From Candidatus Abyssobacteria bacterium SURF_5 (lineage in GTDB: Bacteria > Abyssobacteria > SURF-5), in contig QZKU01000145.1 in NCBI GenBank assembly GCA_003598085.1, forward strand, positions 12,610 through 76,609: a stretch of DNA of 64,000 bases. Reading direction: 5' to 3'. Of the stretch, positions 6,811 through 57,421 are shown piece by piece (the first letter of the stretch is position 1; each line of letters starts with the position of its first letter). A model generated the notes under the pieces. That model was not told the origin of the DNA and searched no databases. It worked only from the letters and a program-made list of their open reading frames with translations. Both the position numbers and the translations under genes were made by a program.

Positions 6811-7773
6811 ATGCCGCCTGCCATTGAAATCAACGGTTTGACTAAAACGTACCGCACACTGTTCGGCCTCCGACAAGTGACCGCGGTTGACGACCTGAAC
6901 CTGACGGTTGAGGAAGGAGAAGTCTTCGGTTTTCTCGGTCCGAACGGGGCGGGCAAAACGACGACGATCAAAATCTTGCTCGGAATCATTTATCCCACCG
7001 CCGGCGAGTGCAAGCTCTTTGGGGAACGGTTCGCCTCCAATTTTGCATTCGCTCCGGAATCCGCCAACAGCAGGTTGAAGGCCAACATTGGTTATCTTCC
7101 CGAAGGTCCGTATTTCCATGAGTTCCTTTCCGGCCGGGAGGTGCTCTCGTTCTACGGCAAGTTGTACGGCCTGCGCGGAAATCATTTGAAGAGCCGGATC
7201 GATGAGACGCTCGATATTGTGGGAATGCAGTACGCAGCCGACCGGCTTGTGCAGCATTACTCGAAGGGAATGCGCCAGCGAATTGGATTGGCGCAGGCTC
7301 TGCTGAGCGATCCAAAGCTGATGATCCTTGACGAGCCGACGGTCGGCCTCGACCCGATAGCTCGCCGCGAGATACGCGACCTGATGATCAAATTGAGGAA
7401 TCTGGGGAAGACGCTGTTCGTGTGTTCGCATGAATTGAGCGAAGTCGAGATGATCTGCAACAAGATTGCAATTATCAACCGCGGAAAGATGGTCACGCAT
7501 GGAAAACTCCTCGATCTGATGCTGCAAGACCGCGCCGTGGAAATCGACGTGACCAATCTCCAGGAAGCTGTGTGGAAGAAACTGGAGACAGAAGGCTGTT
7601 TTGTCGGGAAGGCGGAGACCGGGCTGACTATGGTCCGCCTGCCCGAAAACCGCAGCCTTTACCAGATATTGGACATTCTAAAGGCTGACGCGACCGAGAT
7701 AGTCGCGATCAGACCAAAAAAAGAATCTTTGGAGGATTTGTTCATTCGATCTGTGAAGGAGGAAGTCGCGTGA
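6811..7773 (+). CDS. ABC-2 type transporter ATP-binding protein
   Basis: 320-residue ATPase. Walker A is GPNGAGKTT (around residue 49), the signature is the variant YSKGMRQR (around 151) instead of LSGGQ, and Walker B is LMILDEPTVGLDP (around 172), with the switch histidine in CSHELSEVE. The GMRQR signature, the DrrA/CcmA-like layout and a C-terminal domain of about 80 residues are typical of exporters whose partner is an ABC-2 permease. That partner overlaps it by four bases (GTGA). Together they probably export a lipid, polysaccharide or drug, or act in gliding- or NatAB-like functions. The substrate is unknown. A GGGGGAG ribosome site precedes the ATG. Confidence 0.88.
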   Translation: MPPAIEINGLTKTYRTLFGLRQVTAVDDLNLTVEEGEVFGFLGPNGAGKTTTIKILLGIIYPTAGECKLFGERFASNFAFAPESANSRLKANIGYLPEGPYFHEFLSGREVLSFYGKLYGLRGNHLKSRIDETLDIVGMQYAADRLVQHYSKGMRQRIGLAQALLSDPKLMILDEPTVGLDPIARREIRDLMIKLRNLGKTLFVCSHELSEVEMICNKIAIINRGKMVTHGKLLDLMLQDRAVEIDVTNLQEAVWKKLETEGCFVGKAETGLTMVRLPENRSLYQILDILKADATEIVAIRPKKESLEDLFIRSVKEEVA

Positions 7774-11518: not shown

Positions 11519-13918
11519 ATGCGCGTTTCACTGAATTGGCTCAAAGAATTCGTTGCCGTACGCCTCTCACCCGCCGATCTCGCTCACAAATTGACTATGA
11601 CCGGCACCGAGGTGGATAGCGTACAGATCATAAAGTCCGCCTTTGAAAAGGTAACCGTTGGGCGCATACTGAAGATTCGGCGGCATCCCAACGCCGACAA
11701 GCTGGTCCTGTGCGAAGTCGACGTCGGCAATTCGTCACCGCTGAAGATCGTTTGCGGCGCACCCAATATCAAAGAGGGCGACATCGTGCCCGTCGCTGTA
11801 TCCGGCGCGAAGCTGGCGGGCGGCTTCTCGGTGCATAAAACCAAAATCAGGGGCGAATCTTCGGAAGGAATGCTCTGCTCGGAGCGCGAGCTCGGCATCA
11901 GCGAGGACCACAGCGGCATCATGATTCTGCCGCCCGACCTGCCGACCGGCGTCCCTCTTGACGAAGCGCTCCAGCTTTCCGACGCGTTGCTCGAGCTCGG
12001 CGTGACGCCGAACCGGCCCGACTGCCTCAGCATATTCGGAACGGCTCGCGAGGTCGCCGCGATAACCGGCGAAAAGACAAGGCTGCCCGACATCCGGATG
12101 CGCGAAGCGGGCGCACAGATAGAATCCCTCACGTCGGTCACAATCGAAGACGAAAAAGGCTGCCCCCGCTATGCCGCGCGCGTCGTGTCCGGCGTCACGA
12201 TCGGAGCATCCCCCGCATGGATGCAACAGCGGCTCCTGAAGGCGGGCCTGCGGCCGATTAATAATGTCGTCGACATAACGAATTATGTGCTGCTTGAACT
12301 CGGTCACCCGCTGCACGCGTTCGATTACCACAAGCTTTTCGAGAACAGAATCGTCGTCAGGCGCGCACTCCCGAAGGAGTCGATCGTGACCCTGGACGGA
12401 GCCAATCGCGGCCTGACCGAACAGATGCTGGTCATCGCCGACGCCGAAAAACCGGTTGCGATCGCCGGCGTCATGGGCGGAGCGAATTCAGAAGTGACCG
12501 AGCAGACGAAGACTGTCCTTATCGAATCCGCATATTTCGACCCCGTTACGATCAGGCGCACATCGAAAGCGCTCGGGTTGTCCACGGAAGCTTCGTTCCG
12601 ATTTGAGCGTGGCGCCGACCCGCAAATGCTGACGGTCGCGCTCGACCGCGCCGCCGCACTCATGGCCGAAGTTGCGGGAGGCACTGTCGCCGCCGGAAGC
12701 GTCGACCAGTACCCGCACCCGTTCAGCCCGAAGGAAATCTCGGTGCGCCATGAGCGGATCAGACGGATTCTCGGCATCCGGGTTCCACCTGACAAAGCGA
12801 TATCCATTCTCGATGCGCTCGGATTCGAAATTGTTTCCACCACCGGCGAGTCGGTCCGCGTGCGCGTGCCGAGTTACCGGCCCGACGTGGGCGAGGAAAT
12901 CGATCTAATCGAAGAGGTTGCGCGCGTCTACGGATATGAAAACATTATTGCGACGTATCCCGAGGACAGGGCGCTCATGACGCGAGGACTGCCGGCAAAG
13001 TCGGCCGAAGAGGAAGTGAAAGCCCTGTTGAAGGGATGCGGTTTCACCGAGATCATCACGTTCAGCTTCGGGGACCCGGAAGAGATGAAGGATTTTTCGG
13101 GCGACGGCTATCCGGCTGCGCCGATCCGAATGAGGAATCCGCTGGCCGAGGACGAAAGCGTTTTGCGGACAACCCTTATGCCCGGACTGCTCGGAACAAT
13201 CCGCAGCAATATCAATATCGGGAGGAAAAACCTGAAACTCTTCGAGGTCGGCAAGATTTTCTGGCCGGCTCCCGGAGAAACGCTGCCGGATGAACACGTG
13301 TCCGCCTGCGGCGCGGCGACCGGGCTGAGGAACTCTCTCCACTGGAAAGAGCAGCCTGCCGAGGTCGATTTCTTCGACTTGAAAGGCGTAGTTGAGACGT
13401 TGCTCGATTCTCTCGGTTTCGACGCGAGAGCTGTCAAATCTGCAAGACCCGGATTTCATCCGGGCAAATGCGCCGATATCGAAGTGGCGGGAAAAACGGT
13501 CGGCCGGGTGGGAGAGATTCACCCCGATATCATTCAGAAATATGAATTAAAACAAAAGACCTTCCTTTTCGAATTGGACCTTTCAACGCTTCTCTCGTGC
13601 CCGAAAACGGAAAAGGAATACCTGAGCGTTTCCCGCTTCCCGTACTCCGATCGCGATATGGCTGTCGTGGTCGATGAGAACATCGAAGCAGCCAAGCTGG
13701 TTTCCGCCATCACAGAGGCCGGAGAAGAGATCTTGAGGCGGGTGCTCCTGTTCGACGTCTATCGAGGTGCGCAAGTGGAAAGCGGAAAGAAAAGCCTCGC
13801 TTTCAGCCTCAGGTTCCAAAGCGTTCAGCGAACACTGACCGATGAGGAAATCACCGCCGCGTTCAATAAAATCGTCCAGTCCGTCCAAACGCGCTTCGGC
13901 GCCCAATTGAGAAAGTAA
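11519..13918 (+). CDS. pheT: Phenylalanyl-tRNA synthetase beta subunit
   Basis: 799 residues with the full bacterial PheT domain order. The EMAP-II-like tRNA-binding domain (about 40-150) includes NADKLVLCEVDVG. The B3/B4 editing domain (about 215-390) includes RPINNVVDITNYV and GLSTEASFRFERG. The B5 domain (about 400-470) is followed by the catalytic-like core and a C-terminal ferredoxin-fold anticodon-binding domain (about 705-799, starting SRFPYSDRDMAVVVDE). It is required for Phe-tRNA formation and for editing of Tyr-tRNA-Phe. It is cotranscribed with pheS and followed four bases later by a ZapB-like gene. Confidence 0.96.
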   Translation: MRVSLNWLKEFVAVRLSPADLAHKLTMTGTEVDSVQIIKSAFEKVTVGRILKIRRHPNADKLVLCEVDVGNSSPLKIVCGAPNIKEGDIVPVAVSGAKLAGGFSVHKTKIRGESSEGMLCSERELGISEDHSGIMILPPDLPTGVPLDEALQLSDALLELGVTPNRPDCLSIFGTAREVAAITGEKTRLPDIRMREAGAQIESLTSVTIEDEKGCPRYAARVVSGVTIGASPAWMQQRLLKAGLRPINNVVDITNYVLLELGHPLHAFDYHKLFENRIVVRRALPKESIVTLDGANRGLTEQMLVIADAEKPVAIAGVMGGANSEVTEQTKTVLIESAYFDPVTIRRTSKALGLSTEASFRFERGADPQMLTVALDRAAALMAEVAGGTVAAGSVDQYPHPFSPKEISVRHERIRRILGIRVPPDKAISILDALGFEIVSTTGESVRVRVPSYRPDVGEEIDLIEEVARVYGYENIIATYPEDRALMTRGLPAKSAEEEVKALLKGCGFTEIITFSFGDPEEMKDFSGDGYPAAPIRMRNPLAEDESVLRTTLMPGLLGTIRSNINIGRKNLKLFEVGKIFWPAPGETLPDEHVSACGAATGLRNSLHWKEQPAEVDFFDLKGVVETLLDSLGFDARAVKSARPGFHPGKCADIEVAGKTVGRVGEIHPDIIQKYELKQKTFLFELDLSTLLSCPKTEKEYLSVSRFPYSDRDMAVVVDENIEAAKLVSAITEAGEEILRRVLLFDVYRGAQVESGKKSLAFSLRFQSVQRTLTDEEITAAFNKIVQSVQTRFGAQLRK

Positions 13919-48426: not shown

Positions 48427-48921
48427 TTACTGTTCTCGCTGAACGTAGAATTTCTCTTTCAGCCTGCGCTCGACCACCTCGGGAACGAACGCGCTGATAT
48501 CTCCGCCGAACTCTATCAGTTCTTTCACCAGGCTCGAGCTGATGAACGAATAGTTTTCATGTGTCATCAAGAAAATCGTCTCAAAGTTGTCATTCAATTT
48601 CCGATTCGTCAAGGCCATCTGGAATTCGAATTCAAAATCGGAAAATGCGCGCAGGCCCCGCACGACGCAGCACGCACCACATCTGCGCACGTAATCGACG
48701 AGCAGGCCGTCAAACGAATCGACGCGCACCGTCGGATATTCCATGGTCAACTCGCGGATCATCTTCAGCCTTTCCTGAATCGAGAACAAGCCGGCTTTGC
48801 GAATATTATGGGCAACGGCGACAATAAGTTCGTCGAACAGACCCACGGCGCGCTCGATAAGATCGATATGGCCGTAGGTGATAGGGTCAAAACTGCCAGG
48901 ATAGATAGCCGTTCGCTTCAT
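48427..48921 (-). CDS. coaD: Phosphopantetheine adenylyltransferase
   Basis: 164 residues, the standard CoaD length. It has the nucleotidyltransferase motif YPGSFDPITYGHIDLIERA at the N-terminus, VRGLRAFSDFEFEFQMA (about 90) and the ISSSLVKELIEFGGD motif (about 128). It converts 4'-phosphopantetheine and ATP to dephospho-CoA. It overlaps larC by four bases, so it is translated as part of the larB-larC-coaD run. Confidence 0.95.
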   Translation of the reverse strand: MKRTAIYPGSFDPITYGHIDLIERAVGLFDELIVAVAHNIRKAGLFSIQERLKMIRELTMEYPTVRVDSFDGLLVDYVRRCGACCVVRGLRAFSDFEFEFQMALTNRKLNDNFETIFLMTHENYSFISSSLVKELIEFGGDISAFVPEVVERRLKEKFYVQREQ

Positions 48922-50105
48922 GCCAAATCTCCTAAATCCCTTCTTGCCGCATATTTTGCCGCGTCATAAACCGCCTTCAGAGGTATGTTCCGATTCCGGG
49001 CAAGCGCCTTGCAATCTTCGAATTCCGGCGACACCGAAAGCGTCCGTTCCTGTCCCGTTCCGATCTTCACCCTCACCTTCCCCCATTCGGTCTCCACCTC
49101 GATCACCCGCCGGTGCAGTTTCAGCCGCGCCTCACGATGATAGCGGATGCCGAAGGTTGTGGATTCGGAAAAAATGATCTCGGCCATCGCAGCGGTTCGG
49201 GACGGCTCGCACAATATGGTGAGCAGCGTACCCGGTCGCGTCTTTTTCGACTGCGTCCCGGAAAGATAAACCTCGAGGGCTCCGTTCTCGAACAGCCGCT
49301 CCATGAGGTATTCGAAATTTTCAGGATTCATGTCGTCTATGGTGGTGTTCATGACCACAATGTCATCCGCGGCGTACGCATCCGCCGGCTCGGCAATGAG
49401 AGCGCGCAACAGGTTCGGCCAATCCGGGAAATCATTCTTGCCGGCGCCATAACCCTGTGCGAGCACCGTCTGCGGAGGAATCGGGCCGAAGCCGGACGCC
49501 AGCGATCGCAAAAGGACCGCCCCCGTCGGCGTCGCCAACTCCGCCTGTGGTCCTCTGGAATAGATAGGTATTCCCTCGAGCAGTTTCATTGTCGCCGGAG
49601 CGGGAACCGGCAGAACGCCGTGCCTGCACTCCACGAAACCGCCGCCGACGTTCACCGGCGAGGCCTGTACCTCCTGGATCCCCAATTTGTCCAGGGCAAT
49701 CAGAGTGCCGACCACGTCCACAATAGCGTCTATGGCGCCGACTTCATGAAAATGGATTTTATCCGGAGTAGTGGCATGAAGCGCCGCTTCCGTTTCGGCC
49801 AGGAACGAGAAAATCCGCTTTGCCTTCTCCACAATCGGCTCGGCAAGCGAGCTGCGATCGAGAAGGCTCTGAATCTGGTGGAGTCCGCGCTCGCCCGGCC
49901 GTTCTTCGTCCACGTGAACGAAGAAGTTGGTAGCGCTTAGATGTCGCCGCATCGTCTTCTCGGCATGCAGATGATATCCTTCAAGCGGCACGAGCCGAAG
50001 GCCTTCGCGCAGGGCATCGAGTTCCAGACCGGCATCGATCAACGAGCCGAGAATCATGTCTCCGCTGACGCCGGAAAAACAGTCAAGGTACAGGCAGCGG
50101 CGCAC
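48918..50105 (-). CDS. larC: Nickel-pincer cofactor biosynthesis protein LarC
   Basis: 395 residues. It has the LarC N-terminus LYLDCFSGVSGDMILGSLIDAG, HFHEVGAIDAIVDVVG (about 120), a TPTGAVLLRSL segment (about 192) and the C-terminal part with NTTIDDMNPE and FGIRYHREARLKL. LarC inserts nickel into the pyridinium dithiocarboxylic cofactor used by lactate racemase and other LarA-like enzymes. Start GTG 50105 follows GGAG. In some species LarC is made by programmed frameshift, but here the two parts are in one frame. LarE and LarA are not in the window. Confidence 0.93.
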   Translation of the reverse strand: MRRCLYLDCFSGVSGDMILGSLIDAGLELDALREGLRLVPLEGYHLHAEKTMRRHLSATNFFVHVDEERPGERGLHQIQSLLDRSSLAEPIVEKAKRIFSFLAETEAALHATTPDKIHFHEVGAIDAIVDVVGTLIALDKLGIQEVQASPVNVGGGFVECRHGVLPVPAPATMKLLEGIPIYSRGPQAELATPTGAVLLRSLASGFGPIPPQTVLAQGYGAGKNDFPDWPNLLRALIAEPADAYAADDIVVMNTTIDDMNPENFEYLMERLFENGALEVYLSGTQSKKTRPGTLLTILCEPSRTAAMAEIIFSESTTFGIRYHREARLKLHRRVIEVETEWGKVRVKIGTGQERTLSVSPEFEDCKALARNRNIPLKAVYDAAKYAARRDLGDLA

Positions 50106-50136: not shown

Positions 50137-50886
50137 CTATTTTTGCCGGGCGATAAGGCTGGCGAAGTAACCGGCGCCAAACCCGTTGTCGATGTTCACC
50201 ACCGCAACGCCGGGCGAACAGGTATTCAGCATTCCCAGGAGCGCGGCCAGCCCATCAAAACTCGCGCCGTACCCAACGCTCGTGGGAACGGCGACTACAG
50301 GGCATTCTACCAGACCGCCCACCACGCTTGCAAGCGCGCCCTCCATTCCGGCCGCCACCACCAACGCGTCCGCCTTCGCTATCTCTTTCCTGCGGTCGAA
50401 AAGCCGGTGGATGCCGGCCACGCCCACGTCGAAGATGCGCCTGACGCGGCAGCCCATCATCTCAGAGGTCAAGGCAGCCTCCTCGGCGACCGGAATGTCC
50501 GAGGTGCCCGCCGTTATGACCGTGACTGCCCCCTTTTTCCGCTTGATCGGATGCAGAATGATGGTCATCACGCGCGCGTCCTGATGGTAAACCGCCGTGG
50601 GGTGCACCTGGCGGACCGCCTCATAGATTTCGCGCGAAACCCGTGTCGCCAGCACGTTTCCATCGCGTTCGATCATCTTCCCCGTGATCGCCACCACCTG
50701 CTCCTTGGTTTTCCTTTCGCACAAGATGACTTCCGGAAAGCCCCTTCTCAAATGGCGGTGATGGTCGAGCTTGGCGAAACCGAGGTCCTCATACGGGAGC
50801 GACTTCAACGCGGAAACCGCCTCTTCAACGCTCACCTCGCCGCGTGACACTGCGGCAATAAGAGAGCGCAGTTTATCTGGATGCAT
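50137..50886 (-). CDS. larB: Nickel-pincer cofactor biosynthesis protein LarB
   Basis: 249 residues. A variable N-terminal helical part (1-80) is followed by a PurE-like carboxylase domain with TAVYHQDARVMTI, ITAGTSDIPVAEEAALTSE (about 130) and VPTSVGYGASFDGLAALLGMLN (about 200). LarB carboxylates and hydrolyses nicotinic acid adenine dinucleotide in the first step of the cofactor pathway. larC follows after 31 bases, and the giant DnaA-like gene ends 15 bases before it. Confidence 0.93.
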   Translation of the reverse strand: MHPDKLRSLIAAVSRGEVSVEEAVSALKSLPYEDLGFAKLDHHRHLRRGFPEVILCERKTKEQVVAITGKMIERDGNVLATRVSREIYEAVRQVHPTAVYHQDARVMTIILHPIKRKKGAVTVITAGTSDIPVAEEAALTSEMMGCRVRRIFDVGVAGIHRLFDRRKEIAKADALVVAAGMEGALASVVGGLVECPVVAVPTSVGYGASFDGLAALLGMLNTCSPGVAVVNIDNGFGAGYFASLIARQK

Positions 50887-50901: not shown

Positions 50902-53900
50902 TCAGATTTTCTTTTTGCTGGCTCTTTTGACGGCGGCGCCGAAGATCGGCTCCTTTTTGTACTTCTTCGACATACCGATCATCAGCAGGATATCCCGCCC
51001 CAGAACCTCATCTATTATAGCGCGAAGATATCCGAATGTGGAAGAGGGCAGTTTGGTGACGCTGTCGCAGTCGTCGATGAGGATCACATGCGACTTGATC
51101 AGCCGGTTCAGCAGGCCGTTCCAGTCGAACGCCTGCTTTTTCGAGAGAACCGTCACAAGCCGCTCGATCGAGAGGGAGGAAACCGGCCCGGTGAATACGC
51201 CTTGCAGCCGGTGGGCCAACGCATTGAAGAAGTGGTTGCGGCGCTGGCGGTCGTCTTCCATGACCAGCAAAGGAAACTTGTTGCGCCAGCGCTTGTTGGG
51301 GTTCTTGAAAATCTCCTCGAATTCCTCGAACAGCTCTTTCCCCTGGAAATTGGCGCTTGTCAACGCGGTATTCGCCTGCAGGAACTCCTCGAAGAAATCT
51401 TTTTTCACCTCCGGGGCGGCCGGCTCCGGCGAAGGCGCCGTCTCCGCCGCACGCGTCTCAGCTTCCTGTTTTTCCTGCTGTCCGGCGAACGGAATCCGGG
51501 CAACATGAACGAAAGCCTCAATCGCTTCCTTCTGCTCTTCTTGCACTTGAGCATCAACCTCCAGTTTTGCCAACAGTCCAGCCTCAATAAAATGCAGCAT
51601 GCTTTCCTCGATACTCTGCATCTTTATCGGAGGCACTTCCGAAGCAATGACTATCTGGGTCCCGCTCTTCAGCATCGCGGAGAGCAATCCGTATAGAGAT
51701 GCCTGTATCTCCCGGGGAACATCGGAAATCTCGAAATCGTCTAGAATGAGCAGCCGCAGGCTCCTCGGCCATTTCTCCAGATTCTCGCGCTCCCTTTTCA
51801 TGCGCTCGATAAGCGAGCCGAGCGAAATTACCACGGCGCTCAATTTCGGGTTCTGTTTGGTGGCCAGTAATCCGAGCGCGTGCATGATATGCGTCTTTCC
51901 CGCGCCGGACTGCCCGTATATGCAAAGCGGGTTATACAGCGTTCCGGGACTCTTGGCTATTTTCTCCGCCATCGTTATCGTGAAACTGTTCGCCTCGCTG
52001 CCCCTGAATCCCGCAAAATCATGCAACCATTCCACCGGCTCGAACTGCACGTCGCCGGCCGGTTCTTCCGGCTCAGCCTGCGCGTCGCTCGCATCGGCAG
52101 CCGGCTCTTCCGCCGATGCCGGAGGAGGCGAAACGTCGGCCTCCTGCTCCGCCGCCGTCGGGAGTTTGGCGCTGTCAGGCTGAGACGCCTGTTCATGCTC
52201 GAGCGTGGTGAGACGCCCGCGCAGGACATCGTTTTCCTTTCGCTGCCGGAGTAGGAGCTCTTCATACTCCTGCCGCACCTTCGCGAGTTGGGCGTCGGCG
52301 GTTTGAGCATGCTCTTCCAGAGATCTGGCGGCTTCCTTTTGCGCGGCGGACAGGCGCTCTATTTCCTTATCCTTCGAAGCGACTATCTCCCGGGCCGACT
52401 CCCGACCGCGTTGTTCCGCCGCTTGCAGCATATCGTCTTTTTTAGCGGTAATCCGCTCCAGTTCCTGAATGCGGGCAAGAGCGCCTGCATCCTCTTGCTC
52501 GACTTGCGCCCGCAGCTTCGTCAGTTCTTCTTGCAACGCCTTGATCTGATCGTCGCGAGACTTGAGCGCCTGCTCTGTCTTTTTCTTCTCCGACTGCAGC
52601 TTGCTTCCGCTCTTCTCGGCCTTGACCATTTCGGCTCTCAGTTTGTCGTAGTCGACTTGAAGCTCCGAATAATCGTGGCGTACCGCCGCCAGCGCGCGCT
52701 CCTTGGCCGTCAATTCTTTCTCCAGCGCTGAAAAATGGCCCTGCGCCTCCGCCCCTTGAGCGGTGCTTTGCGAAAAACTCTCCCGCAACGCCTCAAGCGC
52801 CTTTTGCGACTCGGCCACGCGCAGGTCTTTCTCCTCGATCAGGGTCGCCAGCCGCGCCGCATCCTGCTCGGCCAGCTCCCGCAGTTCGACCTGTCTTTCC
52901 AGGTCCTGCTGCGCCTCGTTCATCTTCTTCTTTAACTTCTGCACCTGTTCGGATAGCGACTTCATCTCGAGCTCGGCGGCGCTACTTGCGTCGGAATGCG
53001 CCTTCTCGCGCGCGGTCGATTCCAGCCGCTGGCGCTCGAGTCGTTCGGTCAATGCAGCCTTTTCCTGCTCGAATCGCGACAGTAACTCGCCTTCGCGCGC
53101 CTGCGCCTCTCTCAGTTGAACGCGAGCCTCCTGCAGACGCTCTCCGGCCGCCTGGACCGCAGCTTCCGCCTCGTGCGTAACCTCCTCCACCCGTGCGGCA
53201 ACTTCCTGTTCTTTGGCGGCGAGCGAAGCCTTTTCGTTTTCAGCGGCGGCGAGTTCAGCCCGCAGCGCCGCCAGCGCCTCCTCGCTCGATTGTATCCGCC
53301 GCTCATAGTCGCCGAGCCGACTTTCGAATTCCCGAACCTGTTCGTTCCGCTGAGTCAACTGCGTCTCGAGCTCGCTCGCGCGCTCCCTGGCTTCCTGTAT
53401 CTGCTTATCGAACAGATCCCGCGCGGCCGCGGACGAATCTTCCGCCTGCTGCCTCTCTTCCTTTACGGCCGCCAGCTCGTGCGCGAGTTCCGAGACTCGC
53501 CGCTCGAACTCATCGCCGCGCTCGTTTGCCGCCACAATATCTTCGAACGTTTTCTGCAGCTCATCGTTCCGGCGTTTCAGCTCGTCTTTCAGCTTCAGGA
53601 TATGCTCGGCCTCGCCCTTTTCCTTCGCATCCAAAAGCTGATCGCGCTGGCGCACGCGGTCCTCGAGATCAGAAACGTGGGTCTTTAATCGCTTAATGAT
53701 GCCGGCCGATTCCTGAACTTCGCGCTGTGAGGCGGCGATTTTTTCCGCGAGATCCTTCTCATGCAAGGCGAGCTCGTCGCGTTGTCGCTCGAGGCGTTCC
53801 TCCCAACTCTTCTGCGCTTCCTCAAATTGTCTTCCTATTTCCTCCGCGCGCGCTTCGGCCTCTTCCGCTTCCGCTTTTGCCTGGTTCAGAATCTCTTCGT

Positions 53901-56034
53901 TCCTTTGCAGCTTGGCGGTGGCTTCCTCGAGCGATTTCGAGAGGTTCTGCTCAGAAGCCTCTTTCTCTTTCAGGACAGCCTTCAACTGTTCGATCTCGTC
54001 GTTCAGCTCGGCCGCCAGCATCTTCCGTTGCTCGCGTGTCTCCTTCAGGACCGCTTCCTGCTTCTTGCGTTCCAACTCCGCCGCATGCAACTCGTCATCC
54101 AGCTTCTTCACCTGCTCATGAAACGCTCGAATACGCTCTGCATCCTCTCGTTCCTTGAGCAGGAGAGCCTGCTCGCGTTCCGACACATGATTCTGCAGCT
54201 TCAGGTTTTCGGAAGCCAATTCCTCAAGTTTCTTGCTTTTTTCGCCGATCTCCCGTTCATGCTGCTCCACCATCGATTTCGAGGAAGCGAGTTCCGCAGT
54301 GATTTCCGAGAGGTCCTGTTTCATCTTCTCGCGTTCGGAGCGCACTCGCTCGAGCTCCTCGCGCGCGCGCTGATGGTTCTGAGAGACTTCTTTCAGGCGC
54401 TCCTCGATCTCAGCACTAGCGGATTCCGCCGCACTCGCGCGCTTCGACAGCGTGGCGTTTTTTTGTTCCCGCGATTGGGAAAGTGCGCGTTCGGCCTCGA
54501 GCGCCTGCGAGAGAGCGTTGATCTCCTCCTGCAACTGCTGCTCCCGAGCGGCCGCCTCCGAGAGCTTGGCGGAACTCTCCTCCGTCCTCTGCGCCCGAAT
54601 GTGTTCAAGGTTGTCCTCGAGTTCCTTGATGCGAGCGTTTAATTGCTCCGCCGCCTTCTTGAGCAGCTCGTTCTCTTCGCGCGTCTCTGCATAGCTATCC
54701 TCGAGGTCCAACTTCTCTCTTTGCTCCTTCGAGCTGCGCTTTTCACGCTCCTCTCGAAGCAGCACAAGTTTTTCGTCTTTGTCCTCGAGCTGGATTTTCA
54801 GGGCGAGCAGATCATCTTCTTTTTCTTTCTGCAGTTGCTCGATTCGGGCTTGCAGGGCCTGCAATTTCTGCTCCGCCTGCTTCTGGTGGTCTGCGTGGAG
54901 GGCAAGATCGCTGAAATTCTTTTTCAGCAGTTGCTCCAGCTCCGAAATTCGTGCTTCTTTTTCCGACAGAGCCGCGTCGCGATCCCTCAGGGCCTCCTCG
55001 GCGCGCTCTTCCCGCTCTTTCAGCTCCTTCGACAACTGGGCGATTTCGCTCGAGATAACCTTGCCCTGTGATTTCAGCAGATTATTTTTCTCGTCAAGCT
55101 CTCCCTTGATCTTCTTTAATCTCAAGGTGAGCGAAGCATTGTCAGCGGCAGTCGCCTTCTCACGAGCCGCAAGTTCTTCAATCTGGCGCTGCATCTGCTG
55201 AACGATTTCATCATGCGAGCTCAATTTCTGCTCGTACTCGCGCAAGGTGACCTGGAGACCGTCCTCGTGTTTCTTCGCCTGGCGCTGCATCCACGTGCTG
55301 AGAATCTCCTCCGTCGTGGCAGTATCCTTCTGCTCGCCCGCCTGCTCGCGAATGGCGGATAGAAATTCCGCCACCTTCTCCTTCGTGAGGGGCTGGCGAT
55401 TGAGCGTGGAGAAGGTCTTGAGGTGGCCGGGCAACCGTTTCAGGTAAGCCGAATTCTTCCCGGCCTCCTTCATCAGCATCTGCATAACATCGAGATCAAG
55501 CTCCAGGTCCAGACGAGCACACTCGCTCTTCAAAATCTTGAGGCGCGTTTCCGGAAGCGGCGGCACGAGGTGCGCGTCGATTCCGCCGCGGAGCCTGCTG
55601 AGAAACCGCTTGTCGAACCCGCGCAGGTCCTTGATCGGAACCGAAGACGCCAGCAGAATCTGCTTTCCGCTGTCTACAAAGGAATTGAAGAGGGAAGAAA
55701 ACTTGTCTTTGGCGGCGGGAACATCCAGAATCCGCTCGAAATCATCGACAATCAGAAAGTCCTTTCGAACGAGTTCACGGGCCAACGCTTCATCGGAAGA
55801 CGCACCGTTTCCGAATACCTGCTCGACCGTGTCTTCTTCAGATACAAAAAGCAGGGATATCTCGGGATGCGCCCGGGACAATTCGGTGCTTACCGCGGTA
55901 AGCAGATGCGTTTTTCCGGAACCCGCCTCGCCGTGGATCAGCAGAGGCGAGTATCCTTTTTCGAGATTGACGACCGCTTTACACAGAGCGACGGCAAATT
56001 TGTTGGAATCGTCGACCTCGAATGAATCAAGCAT
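50902..56034 (-). CDS. Giant protein: DnaA-like AAA+ - long coiled coil - DnaA-like AAA+
   Basis: 1710 residues. An N-terminal DnaA/Hda-like ATPase (1-225) has DDSNKFAVALCKAV, Walker A HGEAGSGKTHL (about 34-44), Walker B FLIVDDFERI and a lid ending in LKTFSTLN. Residues about 245-1283 are an uninterrupted coiled coil. A Pro/Ala/Glu linker (about 1283-1345) leads to a second DnaA-like ATPase (GSEANSFTITMAEKIA, Walker A IYGQSGAGKTH about 1373, Walker B LLILDDFEI). A third, degenerate ATPase-like part has no P-loop but has VILIDDCDSV (about 1650). The C-terminus is very basic. The start at 56034 is chosen because it follows the tldD stop; an extension to 56142 would overlap tldD. I know no characterised protein of this build. 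A DNA- or polar-scaffold role is conjecture. Confidence 0.85.
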   Translation of the reverse strand: MLDSFEVDDSNKFAVALCKAVVNLEKGYSPLLIHGEAGSGKTHLLTAVSTELSRAHPEISLLFVSEEDTVEQVFGNGASSDEALARELVRKDFLIVDDFERILDVPAAKDKFSSLFNSFVDSGKQILLASSVPIKDLRGFDKRFLSRLRGGIDAHLVPPLPETRLKILKSECARLDLELDLDVMQMLMKEAGKNSAYLKRLPGHLKTFSTLNRQPLTKEKVAEFLSAIREQAGEQKDTATTEEILSTWMQRQAKKHEDGLQVTLREYEQKLSSHDEIVQQMQRQIEELAAREKATAADNASLTLRLKKIKGELDEKNNLLKSQGKVISSEIAQLSKELKEREERAEEALRDRDAALSEKEARISELEQLLKKNFSDLALHADHQKQAEQKLQALQARIEQLQKEKEDDLLALKIQLEDKDEKLVLLREEREKRSSKEQREKLDLEDSYAETREENELLKKAAEQLNARIKELEDNLEHIRAQRTEESSAKLSEAAAREQQLQEEINALSQALEAERALSQSREQKNATLSKRASAAESASAEIEERLKEVSQNHQRAREELERVRSEREKMKQDLSEITAELASSKSMVEQHEREIGEKSKKLEELASENLKLQNHVSEREQALLLKEREDAERIRAFHEQVKKLDDELHAAELERKKQEAVLKETREQRKMLAAELNDEIEQLKAVLKEKEASEQNLSKSLEEATAKLQRNEEILNQAKAEAEEAEARAEEIGRQFEEAQKSWEERLERQRDELALHEKDLAEKIAASQREVQESAGIIKRLKTHVSDLEDRVRQRDQLLDAKEKGEAEHILKLKDELKRRNDELQKTFEDIVAANERGDEFERRVSELAHELAAVKEERQQAEDSSAAARDLFDKQIQEARERASELETQLTQRNEQVREFESRLGDYERRIQSSEEALAALRAELAAAENEKASLAAKEQEVAARVEEVTHEAEAAVQAAGERLQEARVQLREAQAREGELLSRFEQEKAALTERLERQRLESTAREKAHSDASSAAELEMKSLSEQVQKLKKKMNEAQQDLERQVELRELAEQDAARLATLIEEKDLRVAESQKALEALRESFSQSTAQGAEAQGHFSALEKELTAKERALAAVRHDYSELQVDYDKLRAEMVKAEKSGSKLQSEKKKTEQALKSRDDQIKALQEELTKLRAQVEQEDAGALARIQELERITAKKDDMLQAAEQRGRESAREIVASKDKEIERLSAAQKEAARSLEEHAQTADAQLAKVRQEYEELLLRQRKENDVLRGRLTTLEHEQASQPDSAKLPTAAEQEADVSPPPASAEEPAADASDAQAEPEEPAGDVQFEPVEWLHDFAGFRGSEANSFTITMAEKIAKSPGTLYNPLCIYGQSGAGKTHIMHALGLLATKQNPKLSAVVISLGSLIERMKRERENLEKWPRSLRLLILDDFEISDVPREIQASLYGLLSAMLKSGTQIVIASEVPPIKMQSIEESMLHFIEAGLLAKLEVDAQVQEEQKEAIEAFVHVARIPFAGQQEKQEAETRAAETAPSPEPAAPEVKKDFFEEFLQANTALTSANFQGKELFEEFEEIFKNPNKRWRNKFPLLVMEDDRQRRNHFFNALAHRLQGVFTGPVSSLSIERLVTVLSKKQAFDWNGLLNRLIKSHVILIDDCDSVTKLPSSTFGYLRAIIDEVLGRDILLMIGMSKKYKKEPIFGAAVKRASKKKI

Positions 56035-56038
56035 AACT

Positions 56039-57421
56039 TCAGGCACTGGTTCCTCCGACCGTAATCCCTCGTATCCGAAGCGTCGGCTGTGCGTCGGAAA
56101 CCGGGGCCCCCTGCCCGTCTTTTCCGCACGTTCCGAGGCCAAAACCGAGATCGTTGGCCACCATGTCTATTCCCGATAAAACCTTGAGCGAGTTTCCGAT
56201 CAAAGACGCACCCCGAACCGGTTCCTTGATTTCCCCATTGCGGATCAGGTAGCCCTCGCTTACCTCAAACATGAAATCCCCGCTCACCGTGTTCACCTGT
56301 CCGCCGCCCATCCGCCGCACGAACAGACCTTTGTCGGTCGCTGATATGACATCCTCCGGGCGCGCACCGCCGGGAACAATCAAGGTGTTCGTCATGCGGG
56401 GGATCGGCCGGTGGCGGTACGACTCGCGACGTCCGTTGCCCGTGGAGGCACGGCCCTCCTTGCGCGCGCCAATGACGTCGTACAGGTAGCTCTTCAAAAC
56501 TCCATTCTCCACGAGCACCGTGCGCTCGGCCGGCGTCCCCTCGTCGTCCACCTTGAACGTGCCCCGCCTCCGCGGGATCGTGGCATCGTCGTGCACCGAA
56601 ACCGATTCCGAAGCGATCCGCTGTCCGATCTTGCCCGCAAACACCGAGAGACCCTTCTGCACCAGGTCGGCCTCAAGACCGTGCCCGACCGCCTCGTGGA
56701 TCATCGTTCCGCCGGCTTCGGCGCCGACAACAACGGGCATGATACCCGTCGGCGCCGGCGATGCGTCCAGCATTCGCAGCGCCTGCTCGGCCGCTGTTCG
56801 CGCCACCTTCGCGGGGGTCGTATCTTCAAACATCTCGAATCCCATTGTCCCGCCGACCGGCTCGTAGCCCGTCTGAATAAGGTCTCCTCGCTTTGCGACC
56901 GAATGCACAAGAAAGATGATGTGGTCGCGCTCATCGGTCACGAGCAGACCGCTGGAGTTCGCGATGATGACGCGCTGCCGCGAGTCACCATACCGAACGA
57001 GTACCTGCACAACCTCTTTGCCGGCGCTCCATGCGGTTTCGTTCGCTTCCAGCACCTTCGAGACTTTTTCACTCGCAGGAACCGCCGACGGATACTTTAT
57101 CCTCTTCTTCTCGAAGCTCACCTTGACGGCTTCGGGAAAGGTGTATTTTTGAACCGGCGCACGGATGCCTTTGCTCACCCGCTCGGCCAGATCCCGCAAG
57201 GCCGCCGCCGTCAACTGGTTGGTGGAAGCATATGCGGTCATATCTCCCACAACCACACGCAGACCGGCGCCACGATCGGTTCCGCTGATTACGCGCTCTA
57301 TCTTGTTCGCTTCACAACCGATCGAAACGGAAAACCGTTCCTCAATGAAAAGCTCTGCAAAATCTCCGCCATTTTTCAGCGCTAACTGCAAAATCTTTGG
57401 AATTTCCCGAACTATTTTCAT
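56039..57421 (-). CDS. tldD: TldD-family metalloprotease
   Basis: 460 residues with the TldD/PmbA architecture. The zinc motif HEAVGHGLEAD (HExxxH, about residue 240) is followed by a third Cys/His ligand region toward the C-terminus (GTCGKDGQGAPVSDAQP, about 435). The GGARPEDVISATDKGLFV segment is typical. TldD works with TldE/PmbA to trim unfolded leader regions, for example in microcin maturation. No pmbA partner is in the window. It starts the run tldD, giant ATPase, larB, larC, coaD from a good promoter. Confidence 0.93.
   Translation of the reverse strand: MKIVREIPKILQLALKNGGDFAELFIEERFSVSIGCEANKIERVISGTDRGAGLRVVVGDMTAYASTNQLTAAALRDLAERVSKGIRAPVQKYTFPEAVKVSFEKKRIKYPSAVPASEKVSKVLEANETAWSAGKEVVQVLVRYGDSRQRVIIANSSGLLVTDERDHIIFLVHSVAKRGDLIQTGYEPVGGTMGFEMFEDTTPAKVARTAAEQALRMLDASPAPTGIMPVVVGAEAGGTMIHEAVGHGLEADLVQKGLSVFAGKIGQRIASESVSVHDDATIPRRRGTFKVDDEGTPAERTVLVENGVLKSYLYDVIGARKEGRASTGNGRRESYRHRPIPRMTNTLIVPGGARPEDVISATDKGLFVRRMGGGQVNTVSGDFMFEVSEGYLIRNGEIKEPVRGASLIGNSLKVLSGIDMVANDLGFGLGTCGKDGQGAPVSDAQPTLRIRGITVGGTSA

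Follow-up and report, generated by a model that had tools for sequence, protein, structure and literature searches.

A giant coiled-coil protein of Abyssobacteria with DnaA-type AAA+ domains at both ends, a putative ATP-switched tether

The window analyzed here, a stretch of 64,000 nucleotides, belongs to the genome of Candidatus Abyssubacteria SURF_5 (5,103,455 bases in 145 contigs), which represents a deep-subsurface bacterial lineage. Its minus strand carries an open frame of 1,710 residues counted from an ATG (50902-56034), hereafter the giant coil gene, in the order tldD, giant coil gene, larB, larC and coaD, with overlaps or short gaps between the genes. The coordinates of all features are presented in Table 1. 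A GTG at 56046 would give an overlap of 8 bp with tldD, and in both relatives described below the aligned start is an ATG with an 8-bp tldD overlap (11771-11778 of locus L035 and 7082-7089 of locus L036). Since all three genomes then share the identical overlap, the true start is probably this GTG rather than the ATG at 56034, in which case the protein would have 1,714 residues. Residues are numbered throughout from the ATG at 56034.

Table 1. Features of the giant coil gene and of its neighbours (positions in the window).
Feature	Coordinates	Strand	Basis
Whole gene	50902..56046	-	Stop at 50902-50904; probable start GTG 56046, ATG 56034 as alternative
Head 1, residues 1-235, DnaA-type AAA+ base and lid	55330..56034	-	Bac_DnaA, TIGR00362, hhalign
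Head 1 Walker A, GEAGSGKTH (35-43)	55906..55932	-	GxxGSGKTH invariant in three orthologues
Head 1 Walker B, LIVDD (94-98)	55741..55755	-	LIxDD in three orthologues
Head 1 arginine finger, R147 in RFLSRLRGG	55594..55596	-	Aligned with DnaA box VII SRF motif; invariant in three orthologues
Coiled-coil rod, residues 241-1285	52180..55314	-	Heptad periodicity, no proline in 216-1285, predicted helix, no globular hinge
Proline-rich linker, residues 1286-1330	52045..52179	-	List of glycines and prolines
Head 2, residues 1331-1500, DnaA-type AAA+ base	51535..52044	-	Bac_DnaA 4.8e-24, TIGR00362, 2z4r, motifs
Head 2 Walker A, GQSGAGKTH (1374-1382)	51889..51915	-	GxxxxGKTH in three orthologues
Head 3, residues 1542-1710, likely DnaA-type AAA+ base without P-loop, basic C-terminal tail	50905..51411	-	Conservation, fold, profile matches
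tldD, upstream, overlapping	56039..57421	-	Pfam PmbA_TldD domains
larB, downstream	50137..50886	-	NF033503, 303 bits
larC	48918..50105	-	Name from the first-pass annotation; order kept in all three genomes
coaD	48427..48921	-	Name from the first-pass annotation; order kept in all three genomes

The first-pass annotation had described the gene as locked in a run with tldD, larB, larC and coaD, and had raised the possibility of a local assembly fusion absent from related genomes. We found the protein and the identical operon in all three Abyssobacteria genomes searched. One relative is SURF_17 (QZKI01000055), the other a genome from groundwater that carries the label Poribacteria (JACRIR010000082); one of the two stems from a different project. 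Their orthologues (1,826 and 1,658 residues) come from two other genera, are 40-42% identical and keep the same architecture and neighbours. Because the protein stands in the identical operon in each of the three Abyssobacteria genomes searched, an assembly fusion or a spurious frame has practically no chance of being correct and was rejected; the genome is a metagenome assembly, and nothing else was found in favour of such an artefact. The giant coil protein is thus real. In addition, a profile of the C-terminal domain run against 386 genomes gave full matches confined to the three Abyssobacteria. A genome-wide pattern scan with the three-row alignment recovered the two known relatives and nothing else, the same scan with the single protein gave no match, and no relative was found in the viral contigs searched. 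As for the neighbours, larB and larC were adjacent in most of 27 other loci examined with flanks of 1.5 kb, and tldD or the giant coil gene stood beside them in Abyssobacteria only. The operon therefore offers no clue to function, and no common task is apparent from tldD, larB, larC and coaD.

The protein consists of a DnaA-type head (residues 1-235), a coil of about 1,040 residues, a DnaA-type core without lid (1331-1500) and a core without P-loop (1542-1710), an anatomy that we regard as nearly certain. Both ends were searched separately against profile models, the first 235 residues as one query and the C-terminal stretch with the second P-loop as another. The Pfam model Bac_DnaA (cut-off 23 bits) matched head 1 at residues 2-152 (E 2.1e-25, 90 bits) and head 2 at positions 17-166 of the C-terminal stretch (E 4.8e-24, 86 bits). 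Both ends scored best with DnaA over the Hda, IstB and DnaC models, so that they are DnaA-type and do not belong to unrelated AAA+ families; the proposal of DnaA-type heads at both ends, made from the two P-loops, was thereby confirmed. TIGR00362 covered model positions 111-340 in head 1 (1e-39) and 109-268 only in head 2. Using hhalign against 31 DnaAs, we aligned base and lid of head 1 (E 1.5e-39, 243 columns) and the base only of head 2 (E 5.6e-30, 157 columns), and head 2 also matched the solved DnaA structure 2z4r (E 1.4e-26).

In DnaA, the arginine finger of each subunit reaches the ATP bound by its neighbour, and hydrolysis of the ATP depends on sensor II. According to a motif table of the three orthologues, head 1 retains Walker A, Walker B and the box VII arginine and has lost the sensor I aspartate and the sensor II arginine; in its NxRELEG motif, the arginine column holds A or L. 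Head 2 retains the DD of Walker B and a minimal Walker A in all three proteins, its arginine finger is replaced and its lid is missing. The region of the ssDNA-binding initiator-specific motif has diverged in all heads, a region that is also variable among the DnaAs compared. The earlier description of two complete DnaA-like heads therefore holds for the N-terminal head only, since the second is without lid and arginine finger, and as read from the sequence even the complete head is without the sensor II arginine.

Between the heads, heptad periodicity dominates and no proline occurs in residues 216-1285. AlphaFold predicted three helices (241-850, 868-1092 and 1095-1282) and no globular insert. 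These observations agree with the roughly 1,040 heptad-rich residues reported at first reading. The helix break at 851-867 adjoins a stretch that is gapped in the relatives, which argues against a conserved hinge, and no SMC-type hinge domain was matched by Pfam in the coil. Identity among the orthologues was 32% in the coil, 49-50% in heads 2 and 3 together and 57-63% in head 3. The length of the rod varies among the relatives, the whole proteins having 1,658, 1,710 and 1,826 residues. A variable rod between conserved heads fits a spacer and not a lever of fixed length. PADLOC matches to LmuB, JetC and Avs2 involved the coil and the P-loop only and were rejected as composition.

Head 3 is the best conserved part of the protein (78% mean column identity) and had been noticed as a third, P-loop-less ATPase-like domain at the C-terminus. 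It had no match in the Pfam or NCBIfam models, and the sequence EDDxxRRxHxF stands where the P-loop would be. In the AlphaFold model of heads 2 and 3 (mean pLDDT 54, about 70 in head 3), the best VIA-align matches of model residues 220-380, which lie in head 3, were the DnaA AAA+ structures 1l8q and 2hcb (Z 11.7, 148 residues, rmsd 3.6-3.7), in support of that reading. By hhalign against the 31 DnaAs, head 3 gave 57% (E 1e-4), and its profile matched the canonical DnaA of two genomes (G216 and G075) at 3e-5. The latter matches are weak when taken alone, because the same profile matched an HflX-looking protein of 428 residues (genome G002, E 5e-4) and yeast PMS1 (E 0.19), both of which we took as noise; the claim is carried by the fold. 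Given the moderate confidence of the model and other AAA+ proteins close behind DnaA in the structure search (Z 10-11), a DnaA-type AAA+ fold of head 3 is likely, not proven.

DnaA-type modules without the helix-turn-helix (HTH) domain were also found in other proteins, and we reached this wider class by counting Bac_DnaA matches across genomes. Abyssobacteria have a second HTH-less DnaA protein, MshEN-DnaA, encoded directly beside pilB and pilT (L070:5899-7305, minus strand; L068:3637-4974, minus strand); MshEN is a c-di-GMP-binding type of domain. Two of the three Abyssobacteria also have a second, short DnaA near an MshEN/PilB-like gene (L066:2686-3744, plus strand; L067:2977-4050, minus strand), which by eye retains domain IV and is missing domains I-II. 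In another family, a protein of 1,993 residues with the order MshEN, DnaA, helical spacer, DnaA is encoded in a pilus-like gene cluster (L059:6943-12924, plus strand). It has a relative cut by a contig end (L060:7416-11342, plus strand), and next to the L059/L060 protein we observed an MshEN-DnaA of 409 residues and a protein of 983 residues with two DnaA heads, of which one is degenerate and the other intact. A shorter DnaA-linker-DnaA build directly follows Roadblock and MglA genes and precedes DUF4388 in three families (L038:4643-6598, minus strand; L064 and L065, plus strand). Further proteins of this build are encoded at L061:1924-4017 (minus strand), L062:2893-4998 (plus strand) and L063:2521-4596 (plus strand); the L063 gene follows a DUF4388 gene and the L062 gene, by eye, a DUF4388-like gene. 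Single HTH-less domains were observed at the end of a TPR-like repeat protein of about 2,000 residues (L037:5958-11984, minus strand) and fused to a response-regulator receiver-like domain (L074:1336-3249, plus strand, in genome G150, which has 12 Bac_DnaA matches). At locus L071, PilB-like and PilT-like genes were seen by eye next to a gene for a DnaA protein whose N-terminus resembles MshEN.

The L059 protein and the DnaA-linker-DnaA proteins, the latter from five other families, show HTH-less DnaA modules paired in one chain, and the giant coil protein likewise has at least two DnaA-type heads in one chain without HTH. Overall, these results reveal the pairing of HTH-less DnaA heads as a recurrent arrangement, often close to pilus or polarity genes. 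In matched-HMM comparisons, the heads of the giant coil protein scored similarly against HTH-less modules and ordinary DnaA. The tree of heads had long branches, did not resolve their grouping and did not favour HTH-less modules over ordinary DnaA. Kinship of the whole protein with the tandem DnaA class was therefore not supported by the tree or the matched HMMs. Since the heads are no closer to other HTH-less modules than to ordinary DnaA, function cannot be transferred from these proteins.

We considered several roles for the giant coil protein. It is very probably not a replication initiator. The reading that we prefer is a putative cytoplasmic tether or scaffold, switched by ATP and made of DnaA-type AAA+ domains gone from replication, to which we give a probability of about 0.5. 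A special case with the partner named would be a scaffold at the cell pole or for the type IV pilus, whose motor would be positioned or gated by the rod, as may be the case for HTH-less DnaA modules of other lineages. MshEN-DnaA, the second HTH-less DnaA protein of the phylum, lies beside PilB (TIGR02538, 707 bits) and PilT at L070, the MshEN-DnaA and MshEN-DnaA-spacer-DnaA genes of L059 lie near a PilB-like gene, and the DnaA-linker-DnaA genes of L038, L064 and L065 stand between MglA/Roadblock and DUF4388 genes. Such neighbours hint at a role in polarity or pili without establishing it. However, in none of the three genomes is the giant coil gene close to genes for pili or polarity, the comparisons above do not tie its heads to the HTH-less modules, and MglA was found in none of the three Abyssobacteria as against 7 of 9 comparison genomes. 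The polar scaffold suggested by the first-pass annotation thus has indirect and circumstantial support only, from HTH-less modules by pilus and MglA genes elsewhere, and we consider this special case unlikely.

A regulator of DnaA appears slightly less likely still. Hda engages DnaA-ATP and stimulates its hydrolysis, and the finger of head 1 might putatively do the same, or the rod might hold DnaA, at its far end, off the origin. The invariant R147 finger and the DnaA-type fold of head 1 are consistent with such a role, and the Bac_DnaA matches in the host genome are DnaA, MshEN-DnaA and the giant coil protein only, so that no separate Hda was found there. In contrast, a clamp-binding motif (Q..[LMI][FLWY]) was absent from the N-terminus of all three orthologues, TIGR03420 gave 109 bits against a cut-off of 194.8, and many bacteria do without Hda. 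We regard as very improbable an SMC-like machine that bridges DNA and whose ends close on ATP, although the coil is of SMC size, is flanked by ATPase heads and gave, by itself, weak matches to SMC models (50 bits, cut-off 567). Walker A and B are both present at either end and belong to the AAA+ rather than the ABC type, the proline-free rod has no hinge domain, and the coil length is not conserved. The protein had already been set apart from SMC-like ATPases at first reading, and the DnaA type of the Walker motifs at each end and the lack of a hinge bear this out.

For the ATP-switched tether, we propose the following mechanism. The coil would dimerise, giving a rod about 155 nm long (1,042 x 0.1485 nm). 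Head 1 would bind ATP, hydrolyse it slowly and make a head-to-tail contact as in DnaA oligomers, in which its R147 finger would reach into the ATP-binding site of a second AAA+ subunit; candidate acceptors are a further head 1, DnaA, or head 2, either in the same chain or in a second molecule. As head 2 could accept a finger and never donate one, it would terminate such a row. Head 3 may provide a constitutive docking face for a putative partner. More generally, and only tentatively, the ATP-dependent oligomerisation of DnaA may have been taken out of replication into a head-rod-head machine, in which the nucleotide state is coupled over a 150-nm rod to a docking face, and this may have arisen more than once (in Abyssobacteria and in the L059/L060 family).

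Teaching presents DnaA as the initiator of replication, with an AAA+ module that handles DNA. The domains described here are all of known kinds, and their combination and apparent use outside replication look new. In the open-access literature, with most subscription journals outside coverage, we found no account of a coil that carries DnaA-type heads, and no relevant work on DnaA-type modules in coiled-coil proteins or in motility, polarity or pili. Together with the HTH-less DnaA fusions, the giant coil protein suggests a second life of the DnaA module outside replication, in the form of paired heads on helical spacers and of MshEN fusions beside pilus motors. If true, this would define a testable new class of ATP-switched scaffolds, and an annotation as "DnaA" from the ATPase domain alone could mislead.

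Compared with known systems, the protein resembles DnaA by the AAA+ base in all three heads and by the lid, Walker A and B and box VII arginine of head 1. It differs by the fused coil of 1,040 residues, the loss of the sensor II arginine, the degeneration of heads 2 and 3, a TIGR00362 score for the whole protein (220 bits) below the equivalog cut-off of 343.9, and the lack of a domain IV HTH (no Bac_DnaA_C match in the 1,710 residues). Because domain IV is lacking, binding of DNA, as raised in the first-pass annotation, is not supported. With Hda it shares a DnaA-type AAA+ domain without HTH and an arginine finger, retained in head 1, but it is far larger, has no clamp-binding motif and scores below the Hda cut-off. 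In SMC, MukB and Rad50, too, a very long coil is flanked by ATPase parts, but these form one split ABC ATPase, whereas the giant coil protein has AAA+ domains each with Walker A and B, and no hinge. The DnaA-linker-DnaA proteins (L038 and L061-L065, about 600-820 residues) likewise combine two HTH-less heads and a helical linker; in contrast, their linker has about 140-160 residues, their heads are mostly complete, and several adjoin DUF4388 and MglA/Roadblock genes. The L059/L060 proteins also hold two HTH-less DnaA heads in one chain, about 1,280 residues apart. They differ in that their spacer consists, by eye, of helical repeats and not of a heptad coil, both heads are complete, an MshEN domain forms the N-terminus, and the genes lie in a pilus-like cluster.
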